Source: Romanomermis culicivorax (taxonomy: Eukaryota; Nematoda; Enoplea; Mermithida; Mermithidae). From it: 64,000 nt of DNA. Where the stretch lies: the NCBI GenBank assembly GCA_963922205.1, contig CAWUHX010000037.1, positions 124,001-188,000 of the forward strand, read 5' to 3'. A program made the position numbers and the translations under genes. Under the pieces are notes generated by a model. It was not told the origin of the DNA and did no database searches. It saw nothing but the letters and a program-made list of their open reading frames with translations. Shown piece after piece: positions 240 to 55,687 of the stretch. Positions within the stretch are counted from its first letter, which is position 1. Every line of letters starts with the position of its first letter.

Positions 240-460
240 TTCTTTGATTACTCGGAGCTGTCAACGAATAATCTTCAAGTGTTAAACGTTCGAAGCTAAC
301 GCTATCGCCATCTTCGTTGTCTTTCCACGAAATATCTCTATGGAGTTCGATTAGCTTAATTAGATCTTCGAATTTCATTTTTAACGAACTAGTCAATCGA
401 TCATAGCTCGACAAAATGAGATGTTGCTCGCGATTTAATAAGAAAGAAGCGCTGATAACC
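235..460 (-). CDS. Kinesin-8 exon 12 (stop)
   Basis: Acceptor TTTCGTAG. Encodes [20 protein letters not shown] through [10 protein letters not shown], then TAA at 237-235. The total coding length closes exactly in frame, which supports this as the final exon. Confidence 0.83.
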
Positions 461-9400: not shown

Positions 9401-12400
9401 GTTTTGGAGCTCGTGCACAATTTTTTTATGACGTTTAGTGCACAGGGCGGAAGTCAATTTTTATATCATACAGGCTTTCGGTGCGGTTGGTATGCTGTTG
9501 TTTTAGCCCATTGTTTCACAACTTGGAATGTTTGATATTTTAATCTTTGACTTTTGATATTTTAAATGATTTTTGATATTTTAATTTTGGTGTTTGACCA
9601 AAATCAAAATCTGGAGAATCTAAATTTTTGGTTGCTAGTTCGATTTTTGAGTTGCACTTGCATGCTGTCAATATGATTTTTACATTCTATTCTTGAATGC
9701 AAAATGGTTTAATTGACTGGAAATTAGATCGCTTATTCAGGAAACAACTGCTGCCAGCACTCATTTTTCAGCATTGTAACATCAAAATCCGGAGAAATTT
9801 TTGGCGCTTCGCCCTGGAACTTTATTATCATTCTTGCATTTTGAACTGAATTTATTAAACATCATTTGCTTCATACATGCACACAGGGTATGGATTTACC
9901 CTACCCTGGAGAATATGGCAGAAGTTTACTATAGGCCAAAAATTTGGCAAAGTAAAATGCAACAAACATTTTGAAAAGATTAGATTACAAAAAAATATCA
10001 ATTTAAAACACAGTTTATGATTGATGTCAGCAAACAACTTTGTTGAGTAATTATTGATACAAAAGGCAATATTTTTTCATTTTAAAGTAAAAAAATTACT
10101 ATATACCTGATTTCTGGATAATACTTACTAAAGAACCAATTTTGGTCATTTTCTATACCCTGGGTCCCCCAACCATGTGCATGTATGATTTGCTTCAAGC
10201 TTATTTTCTCACTGGTTAGCTGACTGAAAGCATCATGCCATTGCTCAAGTAAGAACAGACTAAAAAATTAAACCTTAGCCGTGGAATAAAGCCCCTGCTA
10301 TACTTCGCCGGCCGGCGCTGGTTAGAAGTATAGCAGCTCGCAACCGGCGCCGGTTGCGAGCTGCTATACTTCGTCTTTTCAGTTGACGGCCGGCGCCGGT
10401 TGTCAATTTCGATTGAATCGAAATTTCTGAACCGGCGCTAGCCGGCGCATATGTTATAACATATGAATTATGGTGCGAAAAATGCCTCTTGGTGTTTTAT
10501 CATTTTTTCGTAGGTTTGCAGTAGGTATCTCACGGCCGGCACCGGATGAAGTATAGCAGCAAAAAATATGTAGCCGGCGCCGGCTCACGCCGGCCGGCGC
10601 CGGTTGTAAAATATTTGAGTCCGGCGACAACCGGCGCCGGCCGGCGAAGTATAGCAGGGGCTTAAGTCTTTAAAACATTCATTTACCACCGTCCTAGAGT
10701 ATAAAGCTCCAAAAATTTTCCGGCGCCGGAATGAGGGATAAATTAAATGCAGTCCATAGTTTTTTTGCCTCAGTTTTCGGTTCCAGCGAAATCGGTTATT
10801 TGAAAGCTGCCGACGTTAGAACGGTTTCTAGTCTCACAACCTCTCACTCAGGTGTCAGCGACAGTGATTCAGCACACATGAATTCATGTTAAGAAAGTGC
10901 AGTATAGATAAGACTTTAGGGAGAATAAAGTTTTTGCTCTATTCACCATTGAAGATTCCATTATGCAGATTGCTACGGTAATTTACATTCCTGAACTTGA
11001 GTAGCTTTACACAGCAGATATTATGTATCTGATAAACACTTAAACAGAGTCATTTAAAGAAGCATGAATTGAAATGCCTGCATAACCACAGCAGCTATAT
11101 AATAGATTATCACTACCCGGATCCGTACCTGAGCAATGTCGGGCCACCCGAGCCACCGGGTAGCTACGTTTTCGTGCCCGGTAGCTACGTTGGCAGCTGT
11201 GGGTTGCCCCAGAAAATCGACACTTACTGGAGGGAAGAGAAAGGCAAAAAGAAAAAAAGAGAAAAGGGAGGAAAGAAAAAAACGGGAAGAGAGAAGGAGA
11301 GAAAGAGAGAAAGAGAAAAAGAGTCAGCCAATCAATCAACTTGAAAAAAATCCACCAAATAATCAATCTGGGAGACAACAATCTACCTATTTGGGAAGCA
11401 CTCAACCAATTTGGGAAATAACCAACCAACCGATCTGGGAGTCAACCAACCTTCTGATCAGGGAACCAACCAACCGATCTGGGAGCCAACCACCCATCTG
11501 ATCGGGGATACAACCAACCAATGTGGGAAGCAACCAATCAAATGATCTGAAAAGCAACCAGCCAACTGATCTGGGAAGCAACCAATAAATTGACCTGGAA
11601 AACGATCCACCAACCAACCGATCTGCGAAGCAACGAACCAATTTGGAAAAAACCAACCAACTTATCGGGAAAGCAACCAACCAATCTGGGAAACAACAGA
11701 CCAATTGATCTGGAAAGCAACCAATAAACTGACCTGGGAAGCAACCAATCAATTTGTTAAACAACCAACCAGGTGATCTGAAAAACAACCAGCTAACCGA
11801 ACTGGGAACCAACCAATTTGGGAAAAACCAACCAACTGATCTGGAAATGAACCAACCAATCCGGGAAAAAATCAACCAAGTGATCTGGAAAGTAACTAGC
11901 AAGCTGATCTAGAAAGCAACCAATCACCTGATATATAGGAAGCAACCCACGAATCTAGGAAACATCCAACCAACAAATCCAGGAATCAAACAACTAATCT
12001 AGATGTCAACCAACCAACTGATCTAGGAAGTAACCAACTGATATGGGAAACTAACAACCAACTGAGCTGGTAAGCAAACGACTAATTTATGAAACAACCA
12101 ATCAATCTAGGAGTCAAACAATTAACCCATGGTCAGTGAGGCAACCAAAGTTTGGGAAACAGCCAATCAGGAAGTCAATCAAAAAAAATTAGGGTAGAAC
12201 CAAGCAATTCGAGAGTCGAACTTCACAGAAAGCCAATGAAGCCAACCAGGGAGTCAGCCAACCAACCAATCTGGGAAGAACCAATCGACTCGGGAAAAAA
12301 CAACAAACCAATCATTGAGTTAGCAACCGCCATCAAACAAATTTAAGAAACTACTAACTAATTTAATAGTAAAGTGTAAAATTAGCCAGGATACTGATGA

Positions 12401-29226: not shown

Positions 29227-29315
29227 ATGTTATTCGGTCGAATCATCGTAATTAAGCGTGATGGGCAAGATGGATCCGTATTCCCAGTCACAATAGATAA
29301 AACCTTGATTGGAAG
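29227..29315 (+). CDS. Ki-67-like exon 1 (FHA start)
   Basis: ATG in CCAAAAATG context; MLFGRIIVIKRDGQDGSVFP and on to LIG, then donor GTAACA. The FHA alignment begins at residue 1, which fixes the start. A TTTTTGTCTAG lies 14 bp upstream and could be a 5'UTR or trans-splice acceptor. Confidence 0.92.
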
Positions 29316-32300
29316 GTAACATAAGTTGTTAGTTGATCTCTCTCTATATTACATCCATCTTTTCTGCATATTCACTTCACTGGATAGAAAAAACTTGTGT
29401 TCGTTTTTAGAAGTAAAGAATGTAACATTCGTATACAACTACCCAGCATTGACAACGTTCATTGTGCAATATTGATGAAAGAAAACAGAGAAGTAGTGCA
29501 TTTTTTTCGCAATAGACAAATTAAAAAATTTGGAACTCTAATTAACTCGTTTTTCAGCCTTACATTCATAATTTAAGCGAAAGTCGCACTTTAACTTTAA
29601 ATGGCCGAACTATTAACCCATCAGAAATGATGAAATTGAAATCGAATGATATTTTCAACATTGGCGAACGGGCCTTCCGATACATCGTTGTCACGCAAGT
29701 TCGCCGACCGTCGATTGCCAAAAAAGTTTCCTTCACTACGTCTAAAATCGAACTTGAAAATTCTGCGGCTAAGCGAGAAAGTAATAATAGTGTTTTATTC
29801 GAATAAATATCAAAATTAAGTTTCTCAATAAAAACAAAAACGAATGAATCAATGCAAGAATAAATGATGAATGCTACAGAAATATAAATATTGGGTTATG
29901 TAAAAATCGTACTAAGTTACATAGCTCCATACCTGTACTTGGGGGGGCAACTTGGCCAACCATGTACCCAAATTCATCCAACCCTCCCAACCTCCCCTCC
30001 AGTTTGGAAAAAATTAAAAAAATTTGCAAAAAAGTCGATGTTTTTTGGCTTTTTTTGGGAAAAATTTCGACTTTTTTCTGCCCCCCCCCCCCCCAAATTT
30101 CGGATTTACCTCCACCCCCCCCCCCCCGTCAACTGGTCGGAGGTCTTTCAGGTGCGCATAGCTCAACGGCTCATAGCCCTTACTTGCGCTCCTTTTGAAA
30201 ATCGCTGGAGTCCATTTCTTCCGTTTTATTTTCCAAATTTTGGGAATTATCAATAATTCTAATATCGGGGTGTAATACGTTCCAAATCCTACCGCATATG
30301 TTTGAAAACCGTTATACCTACAGTTTAATTTACATTTTTTAACAACAAAATTATCATCTTTTAAAGCTCTTGTATTTGCAGAATGAGGATCAGACAGGCA
30401 CAGCAAGAATTTTCCTGGGGGAGGGTCCTTGGACTTTTTATCCAGGAGCAGTAGCGGATCCAGAAATTTTTCAAAAATTTTTTTAAATTTTCCTATAGGT
30501 ATACAGAAAAAAAATCGTATTTCAAAAGTTTCCTGGGCGGCCGCCCCCTCTTGAATCCGCACTTGTCCAATATCCAGGAGGGTAGGGGAGTAGGCGAGAA
30601 AAAAACCATAAACGTTCTGCAAGCCTGTTTTTCATACCTACAAAACATGCACAAAAATCATCAAAAAATCTGTCGTGGGAAAAGTTCAGGGGGGTGTTTG
30701 ACGATTTTTTGGGTCAGGGCGGGTAGCCAGGGTCTCAGGTACACATACATGTAATTGGGGGGGGAAGTGCTATGGGAACCACCCACCACTCAGAAATCGT
30801 CGACCATATGGCTAGCCATTGGGCGACCGCCCCCAGAATTTTCGAATCTAATGGGCGACCGCCCCCAGATTTTCGAATCCAATAATCGATTGGTGAATTA
30901 CTGGCTCCAGATATATCAGATCGAATATGGAAGAAAAATATTTGACTTCATTCGACAACCAAATAGTGAAAGATCACGATCGATCATCAGCAGAAGCAGA
31001 AAAATGTGCTGGAAAAATAAAATTTCGGACGTTTTAAAACCCTGAAAATCAAAATTTTTTGGCGCTCGCCAAACAAACTACTTTAGCCAGCCTTGTGATT
31101 TCCTCCAAAACTCAGGAAATTTAGTTTTAAAAGTCTGGAACTGACGCAAAGTGAATGACATACAAGGGAAGTAATTTTTTATCATTTTTCTGATGAAAGT
31201 AAGCGAATTCATCAATTTTAGAGCGAGCAACTAAAAGTTTATATTCTTCCCACTGTTTTTTTTCTGCACACTGCAGACTTTTTAGGCTTCGTGCAAAATT
31301 TTTTTTTGGTGATTTCTGCGCTGGTGCAGAATTTTTTGAGCCATGTGTTTGATCACATCGGATACAAGAAAGATGCGCTTTGGTGCATTTAATAAGGTCA
31401 TAATCTCGAAATTTTCCATGTTTTAGAAGGTTATTATCTCAAAAATTTCAAAAATAAGTTTAATAAGACTTGTTATTTATTTCCTAGCTTAGGCGCGACT
31501 TCTAACATGTCTACCTTCACTTATCATTTAATACTTTTCATCATCTTAAACGTATTATCTCATGTTTTAATTAGTAATCTGCAATATTTTATCTTAATAT
31601 TTAATAGAGATTCACATTTTTACCTTAACACATTTTTTGAGAAAGATCAATATGTCAAATTTGTAAACTTTTTAAAGCGATTATTGCTTTCTTAACGTAA
31701 AATCAATCAAAAAGCTTGATGGAAGTAGTTCTCAGAAATTTCCACTCTTCTTACTCATATTTTTTCGGCCAAGTTCATGATAGTTTACGAATAAATTACT
31801 GGGTTTGAAATGTTTCAAATATAAAATTCTAGAAATTACGACTTTTGAACACAATATTCGAATGTAATTCTTGAAATAAATGTTCGTAAAATTGATTTTC
31901 CAGTATCGCCTAATGTCAATACCCAAATAATTTTAGTATCTTTTTTGGGCTCTCACTTGACATTGTAGAGGACTTAACCGTCGAGTTCTCATGTAATTCA
32001 AAGTCCTTATGCTTTTGGATGCTTTGCTGGAAAATTTTTTCCACAATGCTTTTAGATTATATATACCTCGATCAAAATCAAAAATTTCAAATGTTTACTC
32101 AATTTTAATGAATTAACGGCTCTGAAAAAAGCAAAAGATTTGAAAAAGCTCAAAAATACAGAAATGAAGCGTCTAAGATCATTTATAAGCGAAAAACAAC
32201 TTCGGGAAAATTGAGAAACAAACTTTGACCCCTTCCCCCATTTGGGGAAAAGGCCCGAGGGAAAAACAGTGATAACAGGAGAAAACCGCAATGCAGAAAC

Positions 32301-35300
32301 TTTTTTCAAACTTTTCTGCACTGAGCAGAAAGCCCGATGTAGAAAAAAACACTTTCCCAAATTTTTTCCCCTAGTTGCACATCGCAACCTGGCTTGTGCA
32401 AAGAAACCCTGGTGATTGATTTGAATAATGACTGATGTATATGTGAGCCTTATTATTCTGTGTGTGATTGAGAATGTATTCAAAATGATTTAGGGTTCTA
32501 CCGTGATTTTGGAGCGTGTTTTTGGATAAATTTGTTGAAAGAAACTATTTCCTACTGACACATTCGTTTACAAACTTTATAGTTTTGGCTTGTTGAAATT
32601 CGGATTGACCATTTAGACCCTTGGAGTCAATTGGCCTGTTGGGAAAAAACCCTCGATGGAATCTCCCAACCGAAGAAAATTCGGAAAAAAAACTTTTTTG
32701 GTCTTTTTTGAGATAAGTTTTGGCTTTTTCTGGGATTTTTTGGGGACCCCCAACATTTTGCTAAACTGGGTACTCCCAGCCCGGGTGTCATGCCTCCCTC
32801 CAACTGGTCGGACCTCTTACACGTATGCGAACAAAGTACATAACTAAGCGATAGAGTATCATGATATCGCGTGACATGTAGCAGGTCTTTGACGCTACGG
32901 ACCAGGCTTTTGTTTGGGGATGCACTTGCACGCAGAGTATGTTCGTCGGAATCAACAATCAATGATGATGTTTGAGACAACAACCTTGAAGCTGATATTC
33001 AAGCCTTGCTTTTAACATGGATTTTGAACCTTTAAGTTTTTTCGTCCAAAAATCTGTGGACTTTCGTGAATAATCCTTTTCAGTCATACATGTAACCGAG
33101 TTCTGAGGTCTGGCAGGGGATAAAGTGACTTTGGGTAGAGTCAGCAACTAGAGATGAGACGGATATCCAAGCCGGGTCCAAAATTTTAAGAATTTCGGGT
33201 CCGGTTCCGGGTCCAAAATTTTGAGAATATCGGGTCTTTCGGGTCTGTTATATTTTTCCACATGCTATTCTGTGTGACATTATTCAGAAACGATTTCTTA
33301 GAGATTTGACCTACTGTTCCATTGACTTATGATAAGTTGGAAATTAATATCTGAAAATGAGATGTTTTGAGTGGTTTTATATGCGTAGTATTGTGACAGC
33401 ATATATTCGGCGCAAAAGTCAAAATTCGCATACCTACAGCACTCCAAAAATTGTAACTTTTACATTTTTTGGCATTTTTCAGTCTTTATGCGAGTTTGGA
33501 AATATAAAACTTCAAATGTTCATTATATGCAGAAGGTATGGAAGAAATTTTCTGACATCTTACTCTCTTCAGTGTCAAAAATGAAGTCGAAATAACATGA
33601 AAGAGTCATTTGAAGCTTTTTTTGGCACCCTCCTATAAGATGCCACGGAATTTTTTCTCTACTTCTGTAGCCACTAGTGCCCAAGACATTTTGTTGACAT
33701 TTAAATCGGGTTTGTGTACCCTTTTGGGAGCTGTAGATGTCTGCACATCTTGAAAATTGATACAAAAATGCTGTTTGCTGCCACTAAATATGCCATCAAC
33801 GGTATGCAGGAAACATTAAAAACGTTCATTAGGATTACTCTTGCGTTTTCTGTAAAGAAACGTCAGAAAAGCTCGATTTTTCAAATTTAATGAACAAATT
33901 AAAATTTTTTGACTTTTCATTTGAAGCATGTCGTTCAGCAAATATCGAATCTAGATGAATCGAAATTTATCAAGCTTTAAAGCTACATTTTTTTCGTATT
34001 TATTATGTTGGTGATGACAAAACCAGTTTTCTCAGAACTTTATTGGTTGGGAATTCATCCGGATTCAAAAATATATTTGAATGGCAGTGGTGCAATGTAT
34101 GCCAATCCCAACAACACAAAAAAAGCGCACACAAATCGTATTGAAATTTTAACATAATATTTCAGACATTAGTCCATACAAGAAAGATGAAAACATTCTG
34201 TAGCATCCTGTATGTCCGGAAAGAGGTCCAAACGAGTTTTTCGGCTATTTTTCGCCTACTTTTGGACACTTTAAAAAGTGTAAAACGTGAAGAGTACAAC
34301 ATTAGAAAAAAATTTCATACGCAGTATGTAGAACCACACAATGTACCCTATTTTCGGGTATGATTCATTTTCAACGTATCCTATTCATATTCGAAATTCT
34401 CACAACTGCATCTTAAAATGGATATGAGAGAAACAACATCATGTTGAAATTGTATGGTCTGGTTGAGACACAATAAACTGATTCGGGTCACTAATCTCTC
34501 GTGACATATTAGTGAGTGAGCATCTTTATAATTTAATTTTTGATCCTTGAATTAATATAAATAAAAATCAAGATTGAAAAGACGATGACTACAAGGAAAA
34601 CAGCCGAAAAACTATTTGTGAAATATAACTTGGGTGCTGTATATTTCAAATCTAAGTCAGTCTGAAGATGATCTAAGCCATAAAGTGCTTATTTGTTATT
34701 TTTTATGTTTCATTAGTAATTGATCTTTAACATCGGTATTTGTTTTCAGCAGCATGACTATATTATACATAAGACCCGAATCAGAATTGTGACAATTTCA
34801 TCGGGTCCGGGTCCAAAATTTTGAGAATATCGGGTCCGCGTACCCCATACATCTCTAGTGTTTAATTTTACCTACTGAATGAAATAATAGTCTGAAGCAA
34901 GCTTTAATATGCATAGTGCACCGTTTTTTCTGACTGTGCAAAATTTTCCGAGCGTTTTTTCACACAACATAAATTTTTGATGGTGAGGCTATCGAAGTTT
35001 TAGGCGTTTCTATATTTACGTGTAACCGGGCTCCGAGGTCTGGGAGCAGGGCTCCGGCGACTTTTTTCGGGCCGAGGGTCAGTGATACCCCAAAATTTTG
35101 GTGGGAGGGATCTCTGAAGGAAAACAATTGATTTTTTCACCAAAAAGTCTGAAAAACTGTTCAAAAAATAGTAATTTTTGTCTAAAAAAATCGTACTAAA
35201 TGTATTCGTGGCGCGAAGCGCCGAGAAAATTGATGTTTCTGACCATTTTTGTACAAAAATCGTTATTTTTCGTCAAAAAATTGGCATTATTTGGTATTTT

Positions 35301-38300
35301 TCCGGCTAGGTGATCCCTATGACTACCATATGGCTAACCATAGGATTGGAAAATAGGATCTTAAGGCACACCATCCAATTACATGTATGCTCTTAGAATT
35401 AGATAGAGTTAGTTGAGATCTCTCAGACCATCTGAGAATAGATTCTATAAATTTATAAAGGTCCCACTGTTTTTAGTACGGCTATAAATTTTTATATCAC
35501 CAGCGAACAAGAACATGCTTACTTCAGGTGACCGTGGTAGGTTGTCAGTATCATTGACATATAAAAGGAATAATTGAGGACCAGAAATGCTGCCATACAT
35601 GCGCGTGCGGGGGTGAGGGTTTTGACTCCCAGCAGTTTCTTGCTGACCCCCAGCAGATTCTTGCTGACCCCAGCAGATTTGATTACCTCAGCAATGATCG
35701 GAAATATGACGGAGGAAAATAAGCTAGAGAGAAGAGAAAGTCGTCATAAAAATAGGAATGATGCTGTAGTTTAACAATTTTTCTAAACAAAGCATACTTG
35801 AAGTCCAAAAAAGTTACATTAAAACTATAAAAAGTGCAGTATAGGCAAGTAATTTCACATATCTGACTAATATAAAATGAACAATATGCTGCTTGGATGT
35901 TAGAAGACCTATTTAAGATATTTTTTTGTCATCAAGAAGGAAAAAAATTTTGTATTCCACTCCCTGCCCTGGCTGACCCCCAACGGAATTTCTATGCTGT
36001 GCATGTATGAATGCTACCCTGTGCAACTCCACTCGTTACATTCTAAGAACTAGACGGGGTATTCTTAGTTTCCTTTTTTGTCTAGTAATGGCATTATCGA
36101 ATATAAATATGTGCTCGATAGACATGTATGTATCGTGTTCAAAATTTTGAAAATGTCGGATCTGGGACCGGATCCAAGATTTTAAGACTATCGAGTCCGC
36201 GTCTAAAATTTTAAGAATATCGGGTCCTGGTCCAACAAAATGGCCGGGTAATTTCCGGTCTGGTTTCGGGTCCGGGTCCCTGATACATCTCTAGTGCTCG
36301 ACAGTGTTTTTTACGAGATTTACATTTTTGGCTCAATGTGAATCCTTTTGGTATATTTGTATAAAGCGAAAAAAATTCTAAAGATAACCTGTCAGGAAAC
36401 ACTTCTCTGGACTCTGAAACCATAAAATATAGAAAAGTTTTATGGTGCTTGAAGTTCTTGAACCGCATAAAGTATGAGTATATTTTTTACCTTGCAAAAT
36501 AATAAAGACATGTTTTTAACAGAAAATCCGATCCTTCTGTTACTTGAATAAGGTATTTGGTAAATTGGTTTAACAGTATTCTAGAGTATCAGAACCTGGA
36601 ATTTTTTGCCGGCGTTGCGCGGCGAATAGATATGAACCAGCAAAAGCTGAATTTTTGAATGCCGCGTCGTGTATTTCTGTTTTATTTATGGTGGACATGA
36701 GCTCAATTTCTAAGTGGAAGAAAATTGCAAAAATAGCCTGGCCGAAAGGTTTTGAACTCTTGCTTCAATTTGCTTCTTATTTCAATAATTATAATAACTA
36801 TTGGAATGAAAAAATACGATTTCATACGACTTCATTTCAAATAATTCAACATGTATATGTAGACAGTTATTCATTCATATTCATACATGCACACAGGGTA
36901 TGGATTTACCCTACCCTAAAAAATTTGGCAGAAGCTTACTATAGGCCAAAAATTTGGCAAAACTTTACTTTAGATCAAAAATTTGGCAAAGTGAAATCCA
37001 ACAAACATTTTGAAAAAATTAGATTGCAAAAAATATCAATTTAAAATACAGTTTGTGATTAATGTCAGCAAACAACTTTGTTGAGTAATTATTGGTACAA
37101 AAGGCAATAAAATTTCTCTTTAAAGTAAAAAAATTACTATATACCTGATTATTGGAAAAAAAATTACTAAAGGACCAATTTCAGTCATTTTCTATACCCT
37201 GAGACCCCTGACCGTGTGCATGTATGTTCATATTTATATGTCATGTTGCTTTCCTGGATCCGAATCCGATGTAGTCAAAAAAAGTGGATCCTGTTATATG
37301 TATATGCCAGGTGGTGACAATTTTTTTTGCTTTTTGAATTGAATTTTTTCACTAATTATGTTGAAAATTCTACGGTCTCTTTCTTCGCTAATAACCACTT
37401 CCCAACTAGCAACTCTTATCATTTTTTCTGTGACTGAAAAACATTTTTCCATTTTCCAGTCCTGTTGGATATATCTGTAACTAAATAGAGTGCAAAGGTT
37501 CAAGCCATAGCTTACTTTAACGTCAGATTGCCAATATAGTTCCTCACGAGATAAGTGTTTGACCATGTATATATATGACCAAATTTCTCAATCAAATAGT
37601 ATACTGATTCAAGTATACTGATTCTCCAAGTGACAGAAACTTTCTATATTCGTTTCAATATTTGGTCGGAAGGGTTTAATATATTTTGAATAGTTTATTA
37701 GCAAAAATACCTTTCCAATCAATAGGACCTTGCATATTAAAAATATTGACATATTCTCTCATTTCCATTGGCAGTTCTGACTTGACTTGAAAAAAAAAAC
37801 CTTCGCCTCTTTTCAACATTTCAAACATTTCGGGGGGGGGCACGGCCCCCAACCCCCTGCCTACTGGCCTGCATATATTTTTGCATATAAAATCCAGAAA
37901 CTGCAAAAACGCTCAGACCCGCCCTTTTTGTGAGGCTTGTACAAAAAACAGATTTTCGTCGGATAAAAAACCGTTTGTTGGTTCAGAAGACAAGCAGAAA
38001 CTCAAACAATACGAGAAGTAAACTTTTTTAAATAAACTCTATTCAGACAAATTATGATTCAAATTCAAAAAATTCAAAGATTCGAAAATAAAGTGAGATT
38101 CAAAGCAGAAGGATTTTGTTCTGATTCAACCGAACAGTCTAAGTTCATAATTCTAGCATGAAAAACTTGATCAGTTGATATTATTTATCAGGACAACAAT
38201 TTTTGACTGCGTAGCAGATTTGCACATAAAAAATTATTCTTAACATTTCCTGATATTTAGACACTTATTTTCATCGAAGAAATGCATTGAATGCAGGCCA

Positions 38301-41300
38301 GTAGGCAGAGGGGTTGGGGGCTATGGCCTGCCCGAATGTTTAAAAAAGAGGTTTTGATTTTTTGGTTTTTCTCTAATTTTTTTCTTCAAGAAAAAGTCAA
38401 GTCAAAAATGCCGATTTTGCAATAAATTAAGTTGAAAAAATGTGTGCCCGCCGAAAAAAATTCCTGGCTACAAGCCTGGTTGTATGTGTATCTTTTGCTT
38501 TTAACACAGTAAACCGAAACTGCAGTTTTGACATTAGCAAAACCGAAGTCATGAATTCAAAAATTCCTAAACCGAAGCTGGAAAACTCAAAAAAGTGAAA
38601 CCGGACCATGTTTAGTTGATATGTTACTCTTTGATATTGTTTTGCTTTTATTTTTCTTATTATATATCGTCTTTTCTTCTCAATTTTACCATATCCTTTC
38701 CAGTGAAAGGAATGATCGTCTACAGTTCACCGCAATTAATTTCGACTTCTAAATCTATATCTTCGTCCAATGTGAAACAAATTTCGACGTCTGATATCAA
38801 ATCGAATGGTTCAGCTAAAAACGTCTGCGCGACTGTTGCTCCAGTGTCTAAAACATCTTCACAATCCAAAGCAGCTTCTCCTGTTGCTAGAAAGCTACCT
38901 TCCACTACAGGAAAATTTGTCAACCATGCGTCGTGCTATCGACCAATGTCTTCTAGCAAAACGGCATCGAAGATCTTGTGCAAAAGTAGTCAACGAGCGG
39001 ATTCTGATGTAAAAAGCACTCCCACATTGTCTAAACAACGAGTCAAGAGCCTGACTAAAGGCGTGTCGACAATTAGTTGCAAAATTGATCCTATGTTGAA
39101 CTTGCGTAAAAAACTGAAACGTAGTTCGGTCATTTCTTCGTTCAAAGGTCGAACACCACCTCAGTCGACAACTAAAATTCCCATACCAAAAAGCCAGGAG
39201 GAAATATCAAAAGCTATAGAACCTGAGAAAGCCGGTATTACCGAAGAACATTCGTCATCTGTCACCATTGATTCGACAGAATTGAGCAGCTTGCTGAGCA
39301 TGAAATTGACGCCCTCCGAAAAAAGCTCGAAAACAATTCTGAGATCGTCCAGCAGCAAGTTAAAACGTGGTAGTTCGACCAGTCTACGAGATTTGAAAAT
39401 TACACCATCAAGTAAAGTCGTCGTTTCGGAGAATACACCTACGCTAGACTTCGCAGATCATTCTATATCGTTACCATTGTCAGAAAAAAGCATCAAAATC
39501 AGTCCAAAGCTTTTTGCGAACAAAAGTTCGTCTAGTTCGCAAGATTTTAAGTCAACACCCTTCGAAAGTAGATCGATATCGTACGAAAATACTACTCCTT
39601 CATTGATCGTAACGCCCCAATTCTCGGTCGAAAATGTGAAGCAAGAAAAATTTAACAGTCTGAGGCGTTCCAGATTCACATCGTCCGAAACCGCATCGTC
39701 TGCGACAATAATTTCTACTGAAAAATGCCGTAGCTCAGGATCGGAAATTTCGAAATTGGATTTCAACGATGAAAATAAAAGTTATGACGAAAATTTTGCT
39801 GCCCATGTGATGCCTCCCTCGCCCGACAAATACTCAGAAGAAATCGAAACTCGTAGTTGTGTAGTATTTCATGAGGATTTTAAACAGGCTACGATAATGC
39901 CAAAGCTAAACGATACAGTCGAAAAATTGTGCGAGGATTTATGTCATACCGTTACCGAACAAATAAAACTCAGTTTGGCGCAAAATTTTCCAGTTTTGGA
40001 GCGTAAATCGCTTGAAAAAAATGAAGATTTTGATCGCTCTATGGTTAAAGTGATCGAAACTCCTAGTACCAATAGAGCGCAAAGTTTACCTATTGGTGAA
40101 ATAATTGACGGCAATGAATTTTCAACAAACCAAACTCCTGTGCGGACGAAGGTTCGTTTCACTGACGTCGCAGTCGATGAAAATTCGAAAACTGTTTTCA
40201 GTCCCATAACACCGAATTTGGAAGACCCTTTCCCTGAATCTTCGGGTAAAAAATGGAAGAATGTACGCAAAACGCCAATCAGGAAGACAAAAAGCAAGAT
40301 CGAACTTTCAACACCGAACTTGAGCGGTTTGTTCGATACGCCCGAAGCCACAAAAAATGAAAAAATCGAAAATCCATTTATTTTACAATTGTCTTGCAGG
40401 ATTACGACTGAAGACAAAGAAATATTCAATAAAAATTTTGTAGCTCAATCGGTCAAAGTCGAGTTGCCCCAAATGATTACTGAGATTGACCAGCCGTCCT
40501 CAAATTTGGTACAAAATTTTGGAGAATGCGCCAGTTCTGAAAAAATAGAAACACCAAGGAATGAAAGCAGCATTTGCCCGAAGAAAGTAAATCGCTGTTT
40601 CTTCAATACACAAATTTTTCAAGAATTATTTTTCAGTGTAATTTTTGGATTTTCTATGTCCAAAATCAGTTCGTTCATTTTGCTTTTGACATTATATTCA
40701 AACTAGGTTTATTAGTTCATCTATGTATGGTTTGAGGATATTTTCTTGGAAATTAACTCTAGAAATTACGTTAAAAAATACGAAGTCGAAAATAATTAAA
40801 ATTCGTATTTTATTTTAGTTTTTCTATCCAATCACTTTTATTTAGAAAGTAATCATGAGTTGTGTTTTTCAGGTTTGCGAACCAACTTATCCAGAAATCA
40901 CAAAACCGCCGGCTGATCCAATATCCGTCGATACAATGGCACAAGGCGATCACGATGTGGTGACTCGTGAATCAGAATTATCATCGATTCGTCGGTCATC
41001 TCGCTTGGCTACTCGCGAAAAAGCTTTCACCCCGAAAGCTATAGAACTGAATTTCACCCCCGTTAGGAAAACGAAACGGGCATTGGACCCTGTTACTGGT
41101 AAAAAAAAATTTTTTACCGTAATAAATTCTCTTGTATGTAAGGTTGTTTCCACTCCAGATAAAAAAGATCTCCAATTTTGAGAGCTGTTTTTTTATTCTT
41201 GATTTCGAAAGGAAAACAAATGTGCAGTATTCATGTTTTTCATGTGCACGTAATAATAGGCTGATTATCCGATTTTTTGGTCATCGTACGATGGGGCAAT

Positions 41301-44300
41301 GGCTACAAAAAAGGCCAATAGGCGAATGTTTTTCCCCAGAAATTATGTCAGTCGTTTAGAAAGAATGTGTGTGATTGGTTTCATAATACTGGAGTGTTTT
41401 CCTAAACCAACCTCTGCATTAAGTTTCTTTTATGTTTGGCATCAGACTGCTCCATACAGAGAGGTATGGGGGGATATTACCCTATCCGAAGTCCTGAAAA
41501 TTTGTTAATGGGAAAAATGATGTATTTCTTTAGTATGCATTTAGCTACATTGCCCACTGTTTTTTTTGTACTCGACCTGTTTGTACTGGTACCAACGACG
41601 GTCTAAAATTGGTTACACTGTGATTAATATATCAAATTGAATTTTCATACCAGAAAATTGTTTGTACTGGTACAAACAAGGCCCAAATTTTTGTTTGTAC
41701 TCAAGCCAAAAAGTCTGTCAAGTACAAAAAAAACTATGACGTTACCGCCGCAGATTTTTAACTTTACCCCTATCCGAAAATCTTACCCTGGAGATTTCTA
41801 TTTGTCATGATTGTCTTGATTACGCAGCGTGTTCTGTACCACTCAAAAGTCTTGTCAAAATTTGCCAACTTTTTCCTAAAATGTTTAGCATATTTTACTT
41901 TTAAGAATTTTCTGTCGAGACTACAGATCCAGTAACCGTAGAATATGTTGCTGCAACTGGAGAAAAACCTGGAACATGGACTCGTGCAACAAAAAAAAAT
42001 GTCAAAAGTTGTATGAACGAAAAGCAAAGTGGGGATGGAGCTAATACGAACGTTGAAGGTAATGTATTTTTCTAAGATGGGTTTGTCATTCACGAATTTA
42101 CGGTGTCCGATACCAGATTCTTGTGTATGATTGCGTCTTTTGCGTTGTGGTGAATGTCGCTCAATTCTTCCCTTCGCGATCTAATAACGTATACAAATTA
42201 TCTGGATTAGTTATGATTCGAGTAGCTTTATCCTAAAATACACTTTATTTTTATTTTAGAAATTCCTGTCCAAGCTACAGCTCTCATATCCGAAGACTTG
42301 GCCATAAAATTCGGAGGTGAACCGAAGACTAAAGCTCGTACAACGAAGAAAAATATCAAGAGTCAAACGGTCGGAAAACAAATTGTAAATGGATATAATG
42401 CGAAAGTAGACGGTATGTGAATTGAAGATTATATGTACCCTTACTTATTTCTAAAACGCAGTATCCTCAAATGAGCGTGATTAAAAAACGCTAGTTTTCG
42501 CCAAAGATTGTTTTGCTTTGTCTCTGCTGTTTTGTTCTCTTCATGCCCTCTGGTCATAAGACGCAGGAAAAATATTTGTCTCGGTCGGAATTTGAATTAT
42601 GATTTTTTCAGCTGGTCTATTTGAGCAGATATCCCAAAATGTGTTTGATTTTTTAAAAATCCTTGTCGAATCTGCCGTTTTAATAGCCGAAGATTTGGCC
42701 ACGAAATTACAACTAAAACCGAATACTCGAGGTCGTAAAACGAAGAAAAATACCGAAAGTCAGGCAAACGAAAATCAAATGGGAAATAAAGATGAAATAG
42801 AAGGTGATGTTGATGTGTTTTAAGACAAAAAACTTCATTATCCTCAAATTTATAAAAAACGCAATATCTTTTAATAAGCGGAATTCGCTGTTATTTTTTT
42901 GTTCTGATAAGATTTGGCAAATTTTTCTTTCTGATTTTTCCGCTCTGCTCATAAAAACGCAGACACGTTACCAAGCCTGTAGCCAGAAATTTTTTCGGGG
43001 GGGGGGGGGGTGGGCACACATTTTTTCAAACGAATTACCATAAAATTGGCATTTCTGACTTGACTTGGAAAAAAACCAAAAATCCCTACCTTTGTCTTTT
43101 TTTAACACTACAAACATTTCGGGGGGGCATGGCCCCCCAACCCACCCCCCCCCCCCTGCCTACAGGCCTGCACATTACGACACATATCTGACTTGAGCTT
43201 GACTTTTATTGACGAATTTTCACGACAGGTCTGCTTCAGAAAACTCATCTTAAAATACATTGTTTTTCAAAAGTTACTGTCGAATTTGCAGCTTCAATAG
43301 CCGAAGACTTGGCCCCGAAATTTGGAGAAAAATTGAAAACCAGAGCTCGTGTAACGAGAAAAAATGCTAGAAGTCACGAGATTGAAGAGCCCATTGGGAA
43401 TGAAAACAATAAAAAAACTGAAGGTACATTGTATAACTCTACACTAAGCTATGCTTTGTTTTGATTATTTCATCTAGAAATTCTCATAGATACCGTACGA
43501 GAGAACAACGAAAAAATTACTATGGGTAGATCGACAAGAAAAAGAGCTCCCACTGGGGAAAATGTTGCGCTTATCAGAAGTAAGAAAAGTGGGCAATAGT
43601 GGTTTTGATGAGCAGACTTAGACATGTGATATTGTTCCGATGTTCCTAATCGGCTGGACAGTATCCTTAACCATCAAAAATCGACCTTTCAGTAAATTCG
43701 TGCGAAACAGCAAGCACAGACATACTAAGTTTTCGTAACATAATCCGTTTACAAAGTTTCAAAAAAGCTATACATATACCATACAGCTACACACCATGCT
43801 CATGTGCATAACTTTTAATATAATCATACTAGGCACCATACATGTAACGGGAACCCGAGGTCTGGGGGGTCGGACGACTTTTTTTTAGGCCGGGGGTCAG
43901 TAATTCCCAAAATTTTGGGGGGGGGGTCTCTCGAGGGAAAAAATCGATTTTTTTACAAAAAAGTCCGGAAAATAGTTCAAAAAATATTAATTTTTTCTGA
44001 AAAGACCGAAAAAATGTATTCATGGCGCGAAGCGCGCAGAAAATTCACATTTTTGACCATTTTTTGTTCAAAAATTGACATTTTTCATCAAAAATTAACA
44101 TTTTTCAGTATTGAGGTTCTTACGGCTACCATATGGCTAGCCATAGAATTGGAAAATCCTGGGGGCGCTCGCCCAATAGCTAGCCATATGGTCGACAATT
44201 TCTGGGGGGGAGGGTTCCCATAGCACTCTTACCGAATTACATGTATATGCTAGGCACATGAAATGTTGAACGTTAATGCCGGAACATTTTACTGATAATG

Positions 44301-47300
44301 TTAAAAAAATTCATTAACCAAGTTTGTAAAATCGCTACAGGGCGGTTCTGATGTTCTCCTTCAGCTGAAATCGCAAAATTTAAACGAATGCAAATGCAAA
44401 GTCGATCAATTGATTTGTTGATCTTTTCTTGAATCGAGCAGTTCCAAGGCTTAACGATTCGTCTCTTCACGTGACCAACATTTTGAACCTGAATTTTGTA
44501 TACGAGCTCCCCATCACTAAAAATCATTCTGTCAATTCTGCATAACACGATTATACTTTTGTAAGAGGTTTTTTCCAACGAAGATGTCGTTTGTCTTTGT
44601 TTCCAGCCGAAAATGTTTGTGAAGGAACTATTGTTAATGCTCTGAGAATGAAAGAATATTCTATGTCTATCATAATTTTGTACCGTTATATGTAATTGGG
44701 GGGAGTGCTGTAGGAACCCCTCCCACAAATTCTCAGCCATAAGCTAGACCTTGGGCGACTTCCTCAGGATTTTCCAATCCTATGGCCAGCCATATGGTAG
44801 TCGTAGGGACCTCAGTGTTTTTTTCTGCACAGTGCAGAAAGGCCAAAAAAAGTTTCCGCACTGCGGTTTCTTCTGTTACCTCTGTTTTTCCCCCGGGTTT
44901 TCCCTCTAAATGGGGGTAGGTATCAAAATTTGTTTCCCCATCTTCACCACGTCGTTTTTCTCTTAAAATGCTCATAGACGCTTTATTTATGTATTTTTGA
45001 GCTTTTTCAAACATTCTGCTTTTTTCAGAGCCGTTAATTCATTAAAATTGAGGAAACATTTGAAATGTTCGAGTTTGATCGAAGTCTAATCTTGTACAAG
45101 TATTATGGAACAAATTTTCCAGCAAAGCATCCAAAAGCATGACTTTGAATTAAATGAGAAATCGACGGTTAAGTCCTTTATGATGTCAAGTGAGAGCCCA
45201 AAAAAGATACTAATAATAATACATAAATGATACAAAAAAGATACTAAATTTTTTGGGTATTGACAATTCGCGACACTGTAAAATCAATTTTCCGAACATA
45301 TATTTCAAGAATTACATTCGAATTTTGTGTTCAAAAGTCGTAATTTCTAGAATTTTATATTTTCGTAAACTGTCATTAACTTGGCCGAAAAGATATGAGT
45401 AAGAAGAGTAGAAATTTCCGAAAACTTCTTCCATGAAGCTTTTTGATTGATTTTACGTTAAGAAAGGAATAATCGCTTTAAAAATTTTACAGACTTGACG
45501 TATATTGTGATCTTTTTAAAAAAATGTGTTAAGGAAAAAATACGAATTTCCATTAAATGTCAAGCCAAAATATTGGAGATTACCAATTGAAAAATGAGAT
45601 AATACGTTCAAGATGATGGAAACTTTTAAATGGTAAGTGAAGGTAGATATGTTAGAAGCCGCGCCTAAGCTATAGTAAATGAATAATAATTCTTGTTAAA
45701 GTTATTTTTGAAAATTTTTGAGATAATGATCTAAAAATTTTGAGATTATGACCTTCTAAAAAATGGAAAATTTTGAGATTATGACCTTCTAAAATGCACC
45801 ACAACGCATCTTTTCTGTATCCGACAGAGGTCCCCAAGGTCGGAAGCTTAGGTAGGGGTAAAATCGCAAACTGCAAGAGTAGTACTTGAAATATGCAGTT
45901 ACCTTTTTTTTGCTCCCGACTTTTTTGCAGAGGGTAGTGATGTAGTACTCTCACTACAAATCCATTCTCAATTACAACTTACAAAAAACATCTTGAACGT
46001 ACTAATTATACGCAGAGAATTGTTATTCGAACCAGCATCTCCAGGAGTATGAGCTTATTCCATCACTGATAAGGGTTGGAGCAGTGGTTTCAATTGAAAG
46101 TGCTGATGCTCAATGTGGCTTTAGTATTATTAATCCCATTACATTATGAACCACGAAAGAAAACCAGGTACCACTCCTGGTCCACGTCAACGGACCTCGC
46201 ATGCCTCAACTCTTAGTAGGAAAGTATGCCACAGCTTGGGTAACCATATGCGTACAGAAAGGAAGGGAGAGCATGAAGATGAAGAATTTTAAGAACATGA
46301 TGTATTTTTTGTCGAAATTATTTAAAATTTTCTTCGCTTTGACTCAACTGAGAAGCTCCAAAATATATGCTCTTGATTTTGGAGAAATATTCCGTATTCC
46401 ACTAAATTTTTAGGATCAGTAGGAAAATGGGCTGCATGAGGGATTTATGAACTAAAAATGTTTCATAAGTAAATGTGTGCTTTCATAAACGTTTCGCAAG
46501 TGAATTTCTATTAGATGTTGCATTGTTAACGTACAAGGTAAAGGCTCACTACGTGAAAAATCGGGAAATTTTTTCAATAACCGTCTGAGACTCATATTAC
46601 CTACCTAAATTTCTTGTGAGAGATAGTCTTTCCGTTTAAGCTAGCCAGATGTGATCAAGGAAGAGTTGCATTACTTTCTCCTCTATTGTTTGGTGAAAAG
46701 CATCCGTTGTAGCTGTTGAAATACATTCTGAAAGTCGTCTGCTTTGCAATGCTTTCATAAGCGTTTCATAAGTAGACTATCTTTTGCGTGGAACAATTTC
46801 ATGTGATTTATGCCAAAGCTGGAAGAACATGCGCTAGAAAATACGCTGAAGCACACAATTTGCTTCAATGTTTATCCAGACTATGTACGCTTTCATTTAT
46901 TTCTATTGACAAAAAAGCAAATGAAAGTCATAGATTATTTCCTTGCTGATGTAAATAACTGTCGTCGTTTTTTTATGTCACCACTAAAGGTTCTCTGGAA
47001 GAAAATCGCTTATGAAACACTTATTGATTCATAAGTCTTATATGCAACACATTTTTTTATAACTAATATTTATGTAACAAGCTCCTATAGTCGAAAGTCT
47101 TACAATTTAGAAAATGTTGAAGTTCAACAATCGACAGGCCCTGGAATGGTAACGACGGAGCTGTTCGAACAACTGTCGGTAAATCCTAAAAAGTCCAGGA
47201 AAACTGTCAAATCGTCGGAAAAGCAAAATGAACCAGCAAAAGTTTTTCAACAAATTGAAGAGCCTATTGTCGAAAAGCGAACTCTACGATCTTCGACCAG

Positions 47301-47316
47301 AAATCAGAAAAAATGA
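29227..47316 (+). CDS. Ki-67-like FHA-domain protein with RVxF motifs and tandem repeats, 11 coding exons
   Basis: Exons: 29227-29315, 29411-29492, 29558-29780, 38704-40586, 40873-41098, 41906-42058, 42260-42412, 42612-42803, 43274-43423, 43478-43579, 47111-47316; phases agree and the sum is 3459 nt (1152 aa plus stop). Residues 1-~105 are an FHA domain that aligns from its first residue with vertebrate Ki-67 (VIKRDGQDGSVFP, LIGR, CNIRIQLP, HNLSES, LNGRTI, GERAFRY). KVSF (113-116) and KVRF (614-617, followed by FSPITPNL) look like PP1-docking RVxF motifs; the second resembles the Ki-67/RepoMan PP1-binding element. Exon 4 is S/T/K-rich with at least a dozen S/T-P sites. Four consecutive phase 1-1 exons encode a ~50-residue repeat (EDLAxKF ... 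TKKN). The C-terminus is basic (LRSSTRNQKK). Ki-67 coats mitotic chromosomes and recruits PP1. Orthology is inference; function is from the family. Confidence 0.82.
29411..29492 (+). CDS. Ki-67-like exon 2 (FHA)
   Basis: Acceptor CGTTTTTAG, donor GTAGTG. Encodes RSKECNIRIQLP and the SIDNVHC segment. The position equivalent to the Ser of the FHA SxxH motif is Asp (residue 44); His47 is kept. Confidence 0.92.
29558..29780 (+). CDS. Ki-67-like exon 3 (FHA end, KVSF)
   Basis: Acceptor GTTTTTCAG, donor GTAATA. Encodes HNLSESRTLTLNGRTI, GERAFRYIVV and then AKKVSFTT. Ends in phase 1 and joins to exon 4 as an ATG codon. Confidence 0.92.
29928..30156. mobile_element. CATACCTGTA MITE
   Basis: CATACCTGTACTTGGG to TCTTTCAGGTGCG, flanked by perfect 8-bp duplications CATAGCTC (29920-29927, 30157-30164). 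Long C-runs and TTTCGACTTTTTT modules as in the other copies. Confidence 0.88.
30745..30885. mobile_element. CATACATGTAA-type MITE, left part only
   Basis: CATACATGTAATTGGGGG, CGTCGACCATATGG, GGCTAGCCATTGGGCGACC, then a direct duplication of the ATGGGCGACCGCCCCCAGA segment. Confidence 0.6.
31249..32365. mobile_element. ~1 kb CACTG-type family copy (inverted)
   Basis: CACTGTTTTTTTTCTGCACAC, family blocks (CTACCTTCACTTATCATTTAA, GATTTTCCAGTATCGC), ending CTGCACTGAGCAGAAAGC and GTAGAAAAAAACACT. It interrupts a CAGGG-type element whose end is GTGCAAAGAAACCCTG (32395-32411). Confidence 0.6.
32640..32830. mobile_element. CATACCTGTA-related fragment
   Basis: CCAACTGGTCGGACCTCTTAC at the right with ACGTATGCG, and the GGAAAAAAAACTTTTTTGG core. 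Left end not recognisable. Confidence 0.5.
33149..34857. mobile_element. hAT-like element, TAGAGATG ends with CGGGTCC words
   Basis: Left TAGAGATGAGACGG and right CATACATCTCTA, both followed inward by CGGGTCCGGGTCCAAAATTTT-type words. Flanking 8-mers do not match, so the pair may be rearranged or come from two copies. It lies in remains of a CATACATGTAA element (33088-33148). No transposase recognised. Confidence 0.6.
35018..35390. mobile_element. CATACATGTAA-type MITE (old copy)
   Basis: ACGTGTAACCGGGCTCCGAGG, TGGCGCGAAGCGCCGAGAAA (about 35210), ACCATATGGCTAACCATAGG, ending CAATTACATGTATG. Duplication not readable. Confidence 0.65.
35594..36009. mobile_element. CATACATGC MITE with CTGGGGGTCAGCA words
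   Basis: CATACATGCGCGTGCGG to CTGTGCATGTATG, flanked by AATGCTGC and AATGCTAC (35586-35593, 36010-36017), 7/8. Repeats of CTGACCCCCAGCAG near 35630-35700. Similar words and a GTGCATGTACG end occur at 2330-2415. Confidence 0.72.
36150..36294. mobile_element. Solo hAT end with CGGGTCC words
   Basis: Repeats of ATCGGGTCC/CCGGATCC and terminal ATACATCTCTAG, matching the right end of the element at 33149-34857. Confidence 0.55.
36882..37226. mobile_element. CATACATGCACA MITE
   Basis: CATACATGCACACAGGG to CGTGTGCATGTATG, flanked by perfect 8-bp duplications TTCATATT (36874-36881, 37227-37234). Very close to 9872-10187. Confidence 0.88.
37227..38703 (+). other. End of Ki-67-like intron 3
   Basis: Holds two mirrored fragments with GGGGGGGGCACGGCCCCCAACC (37840 and 38300 areas; also 42995 and 43120). 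Also a hAT end with AAACCGAA words closing in GTGAAACCGGACCATG (38505-38612). No exon is needed in it. Confidence 0.5.
38704..40586 (+). CDS. Ki-67-like exon 4 (large disordered region with KVRF)
   Basis: Acceptor ATCCTTTCCAG, donor GTAAAT after PKK. 628 codons, S/T/K-rich and low in aromatics, so probably disordered. Contains RTPPQS, KLTPSE, KSTPFES, PPSPDK, ETPSTN, QTPVRTKVRF, FSPITPNL and KTPIRK. No transposon is inserted in it. Confidence 0.92.
40873..41098 (+). CDS. Ki-67-like exon 5
   Basis: Acceptor GTTTTTCAG, donor GTAAAA. Encodes VCEPTYPEITKPP, RRSSRLATREKAFTPK and NFTPVRKTKRA; basic patches and two further S/T-P sites. Confidence 0.88.
41555..41738. mobile_element. hAT-like MITE with TTTGTAC words (nested)
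   Basis: CACTGTTTTTTTTGTACTCG to AAGTACAAAAAAAACTATG, flanked by ACATTGCC and ACGTTACC (6/8). Inserted in a diverged CAGAG-type MITE (about 41460-41790). Sibling of 57738-58132. Lies in intron 5 of the Ki-67-like gene. Confidence 0.6.
41906..42058 (+). CDS. Ki-67-like exon 6 (repeat 1)
   Basis: 153 nt, phase 1-1, acceptor CTTTTAAG, donor GTAATG. FSVETTDPVTVEYVA then WTRATKKNVKS; the most diverged of the four repeats. Confidence 0.85.
42260..42412 (+). CDS. Ki-67-like exon 7 (repeat 2)
   Basis: 153 nt, phase 1-1, acceptor TATTTTAG, donor GTATGT. IPVQATALISEDLAIKFGG then KARTTKKNIKS. Confidence 0.88.
42612..42803 (+). CDS. Ki-67-like exon 8 (repeat 3, extended)
   Basis: Acceptor ATTTTTTCAG, donor GTGATG, phase 1-1. 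By comparison with exon 7 the ancestral acceptor should be at 42655-42656, but it reads TTTTAA, not TTTTAG. The next upstream AG is in frame and adds about 15 residues (AGLFEQISQNVFDFL) before ILVESAVLIAEDLATK. Confidence 0.75.
43274..43423 (+). CDS. Ki-67-like exon 9 (repeat 4)
   Basis: Donor GTACAT. Acceptor taken as TTTTTCAAAAG. The expected TTTTTCAG reads CAA, and an in-frame AG three bases further on keeps phase 1. Encodes VTVEFAASIAEDLAPKFGE then RVTRKNARS. Confidence 0.75.
43478..43579 (+). CDS. Ki-67-like exon 10
   Basis: Acceptor TTCATCTAG, donor GTAAGA, phase 1-1. Encodes EILIDTVRENNEKI, MGRSTRKRAPTGE and ends ALIR; a shortened, basic repeat-like unit. Confidence 0.82.
43837..44249. 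mobile_element. CATACATGTAA-type MITE
   Basis: CATACATGTAACGGGAACCC to TTACATGTATATG, flanked by perfect 8-bp duplications CTAGGCAC (43829-43836, 44250-44257). Contains ATGGCGCGAAGCGCGCAG and ACCATATGGCTAGCCATAG. In intron 10 of the Ki-67-like gene. Confidence 0.88.
44690..44815. mobile_element. CATACATGTAA-type MITE fragment
   Basis: TATATGTAATTGGGGGGAG through CCAATCCTATGGCCAGCC, cut by the element starting at 44817. Confidence 0.55.
44817..45830. mobile_element. ~1 kb CACTG-type family copy
   Basis: CAGTGTTTTTTTCTGCACAG, then the family blocks in order (TTGATCGAAGTCTAATC, AAATCGACGGTTAAGTCC, TCAAGATGATGGAAAC) to the ATGCACCACAACGCATC block. Right end not sharp. Confidence 0.6.
46060..46155 (+). 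pseudogene. Possible hAT transposase C-terminal fragment
   Basis: One frame reads LIRVGAVVSIESADAQCGFSIINPI then stop. The ADAQCGFSxxN segment resembles the ERGFSxMN motif of some hAT-derived proteins. Very short, so tentative. Confidence 0.35.
46446..47036. mobile_element. Possible MITE with TTATGAA / TTTCATAAG inverted ends
   Basis: TTATGAAC...GTTTCATAAGTAA near 46446-46473 and the mirror CTTATGAAACAC...GATTCATAA near 47008-47036. Repeated TTTCATAAG words between them. No flanking duplication found. Confidence 0.4.
47111..47316 (+). CDS. Ki-67-like exon 11 (C-terminus)
   Basis: Acceptor ACAATTTAG, TGA at 47314-47316, phase exact. Encodes NVEVQQSTGPG, TTELFEQLSVNPKKSRKTVK (faintly repeat-like) and the basic end KRTLRSSTRNQKK. 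A missed exon in the 3.5 kb intron before it cannot be excluded. Confidence 0.83.
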
Positions 47317-54813: not shown

Positions 54814-55046
54814 CATACCTGTACTTGGGGGGACCCCCCCCCCCCCCAACTTGGCCAACCCTGTACCCAAAATCATTTACTCCCCAACCCCCCCCCAGTT
54901 TGGAAAAAATTAAAAAAATTTGCCAAAAAGTGTATGTTTTTGGCCTTTTTTGGGAAAAATTTCGACTTTTTCTACCCCCCCCCCCCCCCCAAAAAAATTT
55001 CGGATTTACCCCACCCCCCCAACTGGTCGGAGGTCTTACAGGTATG
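54814..55046. mobile_element. CATACCTGTA MITE, copy A of a tandem cluster
   Basis: CATACCTGTACTTGGGG to GGTCTTACAGGTATG, flanked by perfect TTGATAGC (54806-54813, 55047-55054). Confidence 0.9.
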
Positions 55047-55054
55047 TTGATAGC

Positions 55055-55687
55055 CATACCTGTACTTGGGGGGGGGTTGGGGAGACCCCCCCCCCCCCCC
55101 AACTTGGCTAACCATGTACCCAATCCCCCCCTAGTTTGGAAAAAATTAAAAAATATGTAAAAAGGAATGGTTTTTTGGCCTTTTTTGGGAAAGATTTCGA
55201 CTTTTTTCTACCCCCCCCCCCCCCCCAATTTCGGATTTACCCCCCATACCTGTAAGTTCTCCGACCAGTTGGGGGAGGGCATACCTGTACTTAGGGGGGG
55301 GGGGTTGGGGGGACCCCCCAACTTGGCCAACCCTGTACCCAAAATCATTTACCCCCCCCCCCAGTTTGGAAAAAATTAAAAAAATTTGCAAAAAAGTGTA
55401 TGTTTTTTTGGCCTTTTTGGGGAAAAATTTCGAATTTTTTCTACCCCCCCCCCCAAATTTCGGATCCACCCCCACCCCCCCCCCCCCCCCCCCCCAACTG
55501 GTCGGAGGTCTTACAGGTATGGGGGGGGTAGAAAAAAAGTCGAAATTTTTCCCAAAAAACATACACTTTTTGCAAATTTTTCCAAACTGGGGGAGGGGTG
55601 GATGAATTTGGGTACATGGTTGGCCAAGTTGGGTGGTCCCCCTCAAACCCCCCCCCCCCCCAACTGGTCGGAGGTCTTACAGGCATG
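55055..55687. mobile_element. CATACCTGTA MITE cluster, compound copies B-D
   Basis: Starts CATACCTGTACTTGGG right after the shared TTGATAGC and ends TCTTACAGGCATG, followed by TTGATAGC at 55688-55695. It contains internal family ends near 55254, 55280 and 55520, so several copies are nested. C/G-runs of up to 20 bases may be assembly-sensitive. Confidence 0.8.

Follow-up and report, generated by a model that had tools for sequence, protein, structure and literature searches.

A spliced gene for a probable divergent protein of Ki-67 type in a nematode or an animal close to the nematodes

The locus described here raises the question of whether a protein like Ki-67, a cell-division protein known mainly from vertebrates, is encoded in an apparently invertebrate genome. 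The gene lies on the plus strand at positions 29227-47316 of the window, which is the whole 64,000-nucleotide stretch of DNA analysed (gene at C37:153227-171316, in a genome of 359,112,060 bases on 595 contigs). A first-pass annotation had read an 11-exon gene here, with an N-terminal FHA domain aligned with vertebrate Ki-67 and the remaining parts of the protein in the Ki-67 order. The present analysis favors, at a probability of roughly 0.65, a spliced gene whose product is a divergent protein of Ki-67 type, the host being a nematode or an animal closely related to nematodes. Judged from its letters, the gene is probably a divergent Ki-67 orthologue that extends the known family, with a remainder that is differently built. 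Beyond the FHA domain, the likeness to Ki-67 is in outline only and consists of enrichment in serine/threonine-proline (S/T-P) pairs, four repeat exons and a mildly basic end.

On sequence comparison, the N-terminus is clearly a Ki-67-type FHA domain. It is encoded by exon 1 (29227-29315; start codon and beginning of the domain), exon 2 (29411-29492; its middle) and exon 3 (29558-29780; its end and the linker after it), and amino acids (aa) 5-99 are identical to the human Ki-67 FHA domain at 40 of 92 aligned positions. The best PDB matches were both human Ki-67 (2aff_A, expectation value E = 3e-18, 69 bits; 1r21_A, E = 3.6e-18), and the first aligned pair is residue 5 of the window protein and residue 6 of 2aff, which bears out the N-terminal alignment proposed earlier. 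The next PDB families were a bacterial GGDEF-protein FHA domain (1.4e-6), MDC1 (7e-4) and SNIP1 (1.1), the last of 15 sequences at E ≤ 10; the FHA domain of NIPP1 (2jpe), which is in the searched PDB library, was not among these 15. The Pfam FHA model matched the window protein with E = 9.5e-13. A Pfam match to Yop-YscD_cpl, which we take to be of the FHA fold, was under its cut-off and was set aside.

The reverse searches led back to the same gene. When the human Ki-67 FHA domain was searched against the whole genome, a single match was obtained at E ≤ 10, namely exon 2 alone (E = 0.0115, two candidates scored; C37:153397-153516, window 29397-29516). In a tblastn search of the window with the same query, the three exons were recovered at 1e-12 together, where exon 1 was matched at 29239-29316 with 46% identity, and three chance matches followed with E of 5.8 to 10. 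Against 340 open reading frames (ORFs; at least 30 aa) of the five other FHA loci of the genome together with the window FHA domain, with the database size set to 100000, the human domain reported the window domain only (E = 4e-18). In a tree of 11 FHA domains, in which 7 of the 9 rows other than the window and Ki-67 are without the first strands of the domain, the window domain is paired with Ki-67 at 85/85, which moderately supports the first-pass reading of the domain. The tree joins NIPP1 with kanadaptin, apart from the window domain. Among the other FHA loci, L005 also groups with kanadaptin in the tree, and L001 is SNIP1-like by its PDB match. The window domain keeps the G-R, the H of S-x-x-H and the N-G; the G-R, S-x-x-H and N-G residues are presumably those that bind phosphate.

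The domain could also descend from another FHA family, its likeness to Ki-67 being the general likeness of FHA domains, and the tree leaves some room for this, as it holds one Ki-67 reference and its support of 85/85 is under the starred level. The E-value gap between Ki-67 and the next PDB family, about 11 orders of magnitude, and the sole reverse match in the genome make such an origin highly improbable.

The FHA exons belong to a rebuilt frame of 11 exons, which is readable over 1167 codons plus a stop, with GT...AG ends in 10 of 10 introns and phase agreement at 10 of 10 junctions, so that the 11-exon gene can be read as annotated. The introns measure, in order, 95, 65, 8923, 286, 807, 201, 199, 425, 54 and 3531 bases. 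Some of this phase agreement was built in, since phase was among the guides when the exon limits were set by eye; at exon 11, the nearer AG is out of phase, and a later AG was used.

The third intron is the point at which two genes might have been joined. Exons 1-3 would then encode an FHA-only protein of 139 aa ending at the stop at 29804-29806, and exons 4-11 would be an unrelated gene that starts either from exons not seen here or from an ATG at 38712. Unspliced exon 3 indeed reaches a stop after 8 further codons, the intron is 8923 bases long, and no Ki-67 profile matches anywhere past the FHA domain. However, the donor and acceptor are in phase (A|TG), a polypyrimidine tract accompanies the acceptor at 38704, and no coding-looking ORF was seen by eye in the intron, as judged from the plus-strand list of at least 70 aa, in which shorter exons are unlisted. 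The resulting order, in which a long S/T-P-rich part comes after an FHA domain, is also that of Ki-67, and two separate genes are considered unlikely.

In the single gene that is preferred, exon 4 (38704-40586) encodes an S/T-P-rich and probably disordered part. Between aa 106 and 759, 20 S/T-P pairs were counted against a shuffle mean of 10.5, and 20 was reached in 0 of 1000 shuffles, which substantiates the long S/T-P-rich region described before. Serine and threonine make up 248 of the 1167 residues (21%). Exon 4 was the single match at E ≤ 0.001 in a genome search for a second copy, where exon 4 and the FHA domain were the parts searched. Two RVxF-like motifs are present, KKVSF in exon 3 (aa 112-116; 29720-29734) and KVRF in exon 4 (aa 614-617; 40149-40160), of which the latter is a candidate docking site for PP1; docking via KVRF or KKVSF is possible on these motifs. 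Two other Pfam matches, Hint_2 (E = 0.024) and Aurora-A_bind (E = 0.057), were weak, did not reach their own cut-offs and were rejected.

About 30 residues past KVRF, a K-x-W-x-x-V-x-K stretch (aa 647-664; 40248-40301) may be a counterpart of the Ki-67 conserved domain, in which a motif is common to all homologues (PMC4841783). Its likeness to the human conserved-domain letters, where both the letters and the choice of the domain stretch are assumed, has p = 0.036-0.042 over the post-FHA part; within aa 600-680, a region selected after the likeness had been noticed, p is 0.002. Exon 11 (47111-47316) encodes the C-terminus RTLRSSTRNQKK and the stop, a candidate leucine/arginine-type chromatin-binding end whose likeness to the assumed letters of the human leucine/arginine-rich end has p = 0.03-0.08. 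The likenesses to Ki-67 in both places are suggestive only. The last 408 aa hold 70 lysine and arginine residues against 56 aspartate and glutamate residues; the basic end of the first-pass annotation is therefore present in sign and mild in degree. Basic stretches also occur in exon 5 (R-R-S-S-R; 40873-41098) and exon 10 (GRSTRKR; 43478-43579).

Between these two exons lie four related units in exon 6 (41906-42058; core 41914-42012), exon 7 (42260-42412; core 42268-42366), exon 8 (42612-42803; core 42665-42763) and exon 9 (43229-43423; core 43279-43377), each of phase 1-1, where exon 6 is the most diverged. The tandem repeats are real at the protein level. All six pairs of exons 6-9 gave z values of 8.5 to 19 with 500 shuffles each, where the score of the weakest pair was reached by 1 of 500 shuffles and those of the other five by 0 of 500, and the 33-residue cores share 11 to 18 identical residues. 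Exon 10 shows a weak likeness to exons 6-9 (z = 1.1 to 2.1). On this evidence, the repeat region is read as a tandem exon duplication of four related phase 1-1 exons. The nonsynonymous divergence (dN) of the cores is lower than the synonymous divergence (dS) in 6 of 6 pairs; it is often only slightly lower, so that the repeat sequence is under mild selection at most.

These repeats may or may not share descent with those of Ki-67. When single units were compared with the Ki-67 motif as printed in PMC8354752, p was 0.15 to 1.0, and the best motif alignment falls on the shared EDLA in exon 9 only. Taken jointly, three units gave p of about 0.045 and all four about 0.11.

A number of results weigh against a Ki-67-type protein. 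In the Pfam search, neither PP1_bind (PF15276) nor KI67R (PF08065) matched the window protein, although the controls worked: PP1_bind recognized the human Ki-67 segment at 49.1 bits and the Repo-Man segment at 86.6 bits, and KI67R recognized the 22-residue Ki-67 motif by itself at 42.5 bits. The PP1 segments of human Ki-67 and Repo-Man align with the window protein no better than their shuffled copies do (p = 0.39-0.92), and the PDB search for PP1 docking gave zero matches at E ≤ 10. Across the genome, the best PP1_bind match (E = 0.614) lay on another contig and fell short of the cut-off, and the NIFK domain PF12196, which takes its name from binding the FHA domain of Ki-67, did not exceed its cut-off in the genome (best E = 4.07). 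The RVxF motifs of the first-pass annotation exist as letters, but their number is at chance level, with two or more found in 16.5% of 1000 shuffles. PMC8354752 describes RVxF as conserved in all Ki-67 orthologues and the Ki-67 motif region as present in some version in all homologues shown, so that the window protein fails to show two features given as universal. In the FHA domain itself, the Ser of S-x-x-H is replaced by Asp (in exon 2), and the limits of the tree given above also count here. The window gene is absent from the list of the Pfam FHA genome search, in which five other loci appear, probably because its FHA domain is split over three exons. The boundaries picked by eye with phase in hand belong on the same side, as does the link between exons 3 and 4 over the 8923-base intron, which is proposed from splice signals and phase.

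Given the negative profiles with working controls and the placing of the repeats in separate exons, the claim that the whole architecture past the FHA domain is that of Ki-67 was not upheld. The same results bear on the possibility that an FHA domain of Ki-67 descent was joined later to a part of a different protein, in a gene that does not work as Ki-67. PP1_bind and KI67R are then expected to be silent, and the repeats to be unlike those of Ki-67 in kind and in gene structure, as they are. The S/T-P enrichment, the K-x-W-x-x-V-x-K stretch and the repeats nevertheless come after the FHA domain, and such a joining is judged quite improbable.

The preferred reading, a divergent Ki-67 orthologue, can be compared with known proteins as the cited sources describe them. 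The window protein resembles vertebrate Ki-67 (MKI67) in its N-terminal FHA domain, long region of S/T-P sites, repeat region and basic end; it differs in being 1167 aa long, without a PP1_bind or KI67R match, and in carrying its repeats in separate exons of 153-195 bases, each of phase 1-1. The vertebrate repeat region, where present, is always within a single exon, and one exon of human Ki-67 carries 16 repeats, each about 120 aa long (PMC8354752). The novelty attached earlier to an invertebrate Ki-67 is outdated. A figure legend of Booth et al. 2014 (PMC4032110) includes Ki-67 of Ciona, Saccoglossus, Hydra and Trichoplax, and PMC12669781 describes an orthologue in Platynereis that carries both an FHA and a PP1-binding domain and is 20% S/T, with Priapulus and arthropods among the reference species of the study. 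According to that paper, phylogenetically validated orthologues were, to its authors' knowledge, unreported in other invertebrates. The window protein is likewise non-vertebrate and, like that of Platynereis, has an FHA domain and a similar S/T content (21% against 20%), whereas the PP1-binding region shown for these invertebrate proteins was not recognized here, the comparison being by published description. No nematode Ki-67 was found in the literature search, whose coverage excluded most subscription papers. Repo-Man (CDCA2) is related to Ki-67 via the PP1-binding region (PMC4032110) and has no predicted orthologue in Drosophila or C. elegans (PMC9576876); the window protein differs from it in having an FHA domain and in giving no PP1_bind match. 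NIPP1, SNIP1 and kanadaptin share an FHA domain with the window protein but are not its nearest relatives.

The assignment of the host was derived from two sets of sequences, which agree with the first-pass view of an invertebrate genome. The cuticle collagen N-domain PF01484 occurs at at least 50 places in the genome at E ≤ 0.001, and the two best matches come with Gly-X-Y blocks in another frame, on the same strand and in the same 3.1-kb locus. A COX1 copy forms a frame of 519 codons under code 5 (L039 6403-7962, minus strand of contig C117); as it lies within a 1.03-Mb contig, it is either a copy in the nuclear genome or a join made in assembly. Mitochondrial codes 4, 5, 9 and 14 all leave the frame open. 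Code 5 is preferred because its readings (AGR as Ser, ATA as Met, AAA as Lys) agree with positions assumed to be conserved. On the same assumption, an origin from cnidarians, flatworms or echinoderms and, more tentatively, from tunicates was set aside. The sequence also gives us the impression of an enoplean COI. Taken together, the collagen N-domains and the COX1 code point to Nematoda, with a nematomorph as a possible alternative.

Several other features were observed in this genome. The COX1 locus also holds a frame of 1445 codons (252-4589, as listed with code 5) with a 3'-5' exonuclease-like start by eye. In the homeodomain exons at L013, L015, L018, L020, L025 and L031, the frame departs from the domain past KIWFQ or KIW; homeobox introns thus seem nearly co-located in several genes. 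The homeobox exons L027/L028 and L029/L030 are identical or near-identical on different contigs. This points to recent duplicates or unmerged haplotypes, even though the genome search with exon 4 of the Ki-67-type gene gave a single match. Within the window, a kinesin motor-domain exon lies on the minus strand at 16872-17222 (Pfam Kinesin, E = 3e-28), and an array of CAACCAACC-type units with periods of 20-107 lies at 11364-12105. A C-run-rich unit of 233 bases is present in 2.6 copies at 54842-55454, and from the ORF lists, similar sequence gives the impression of recurring in the window.

By analogy with Ki-67 as described in PMC8354752, PMC4841783, PMC9576876 and PMC4032110, the FHA domain would dock on phosphothreonine partners, and CDK1 would phosphorylate the disordered middle during mitosis. 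The basic, arginine- and lysine-rich stretches in the repeats and the end may retain the protein on chromatin, and this retention would lead to a Ki-67-like coating of mitotic chromosomes.

As a tentative history, to which somewhat less than even odds are given, the ecdysozoan ancestor had Ki-67, and the nematode lineage kept the FHA end, rebuilt the repeats, that is, the brush, by exon duplication, and lost or rewrote the canonical PP1 docking. Drosophila and C. elegans are not known to have Ki-67. If this is the case for C. elegans, a Ki-67-type gene kept in the present genome would place the loss within the nematodes. A small and divergent version of the protein would also offer a test bed for which parts the chromosome coat needs, among the FHA domain, the disordered brush, the basic end and the PP1 docking.
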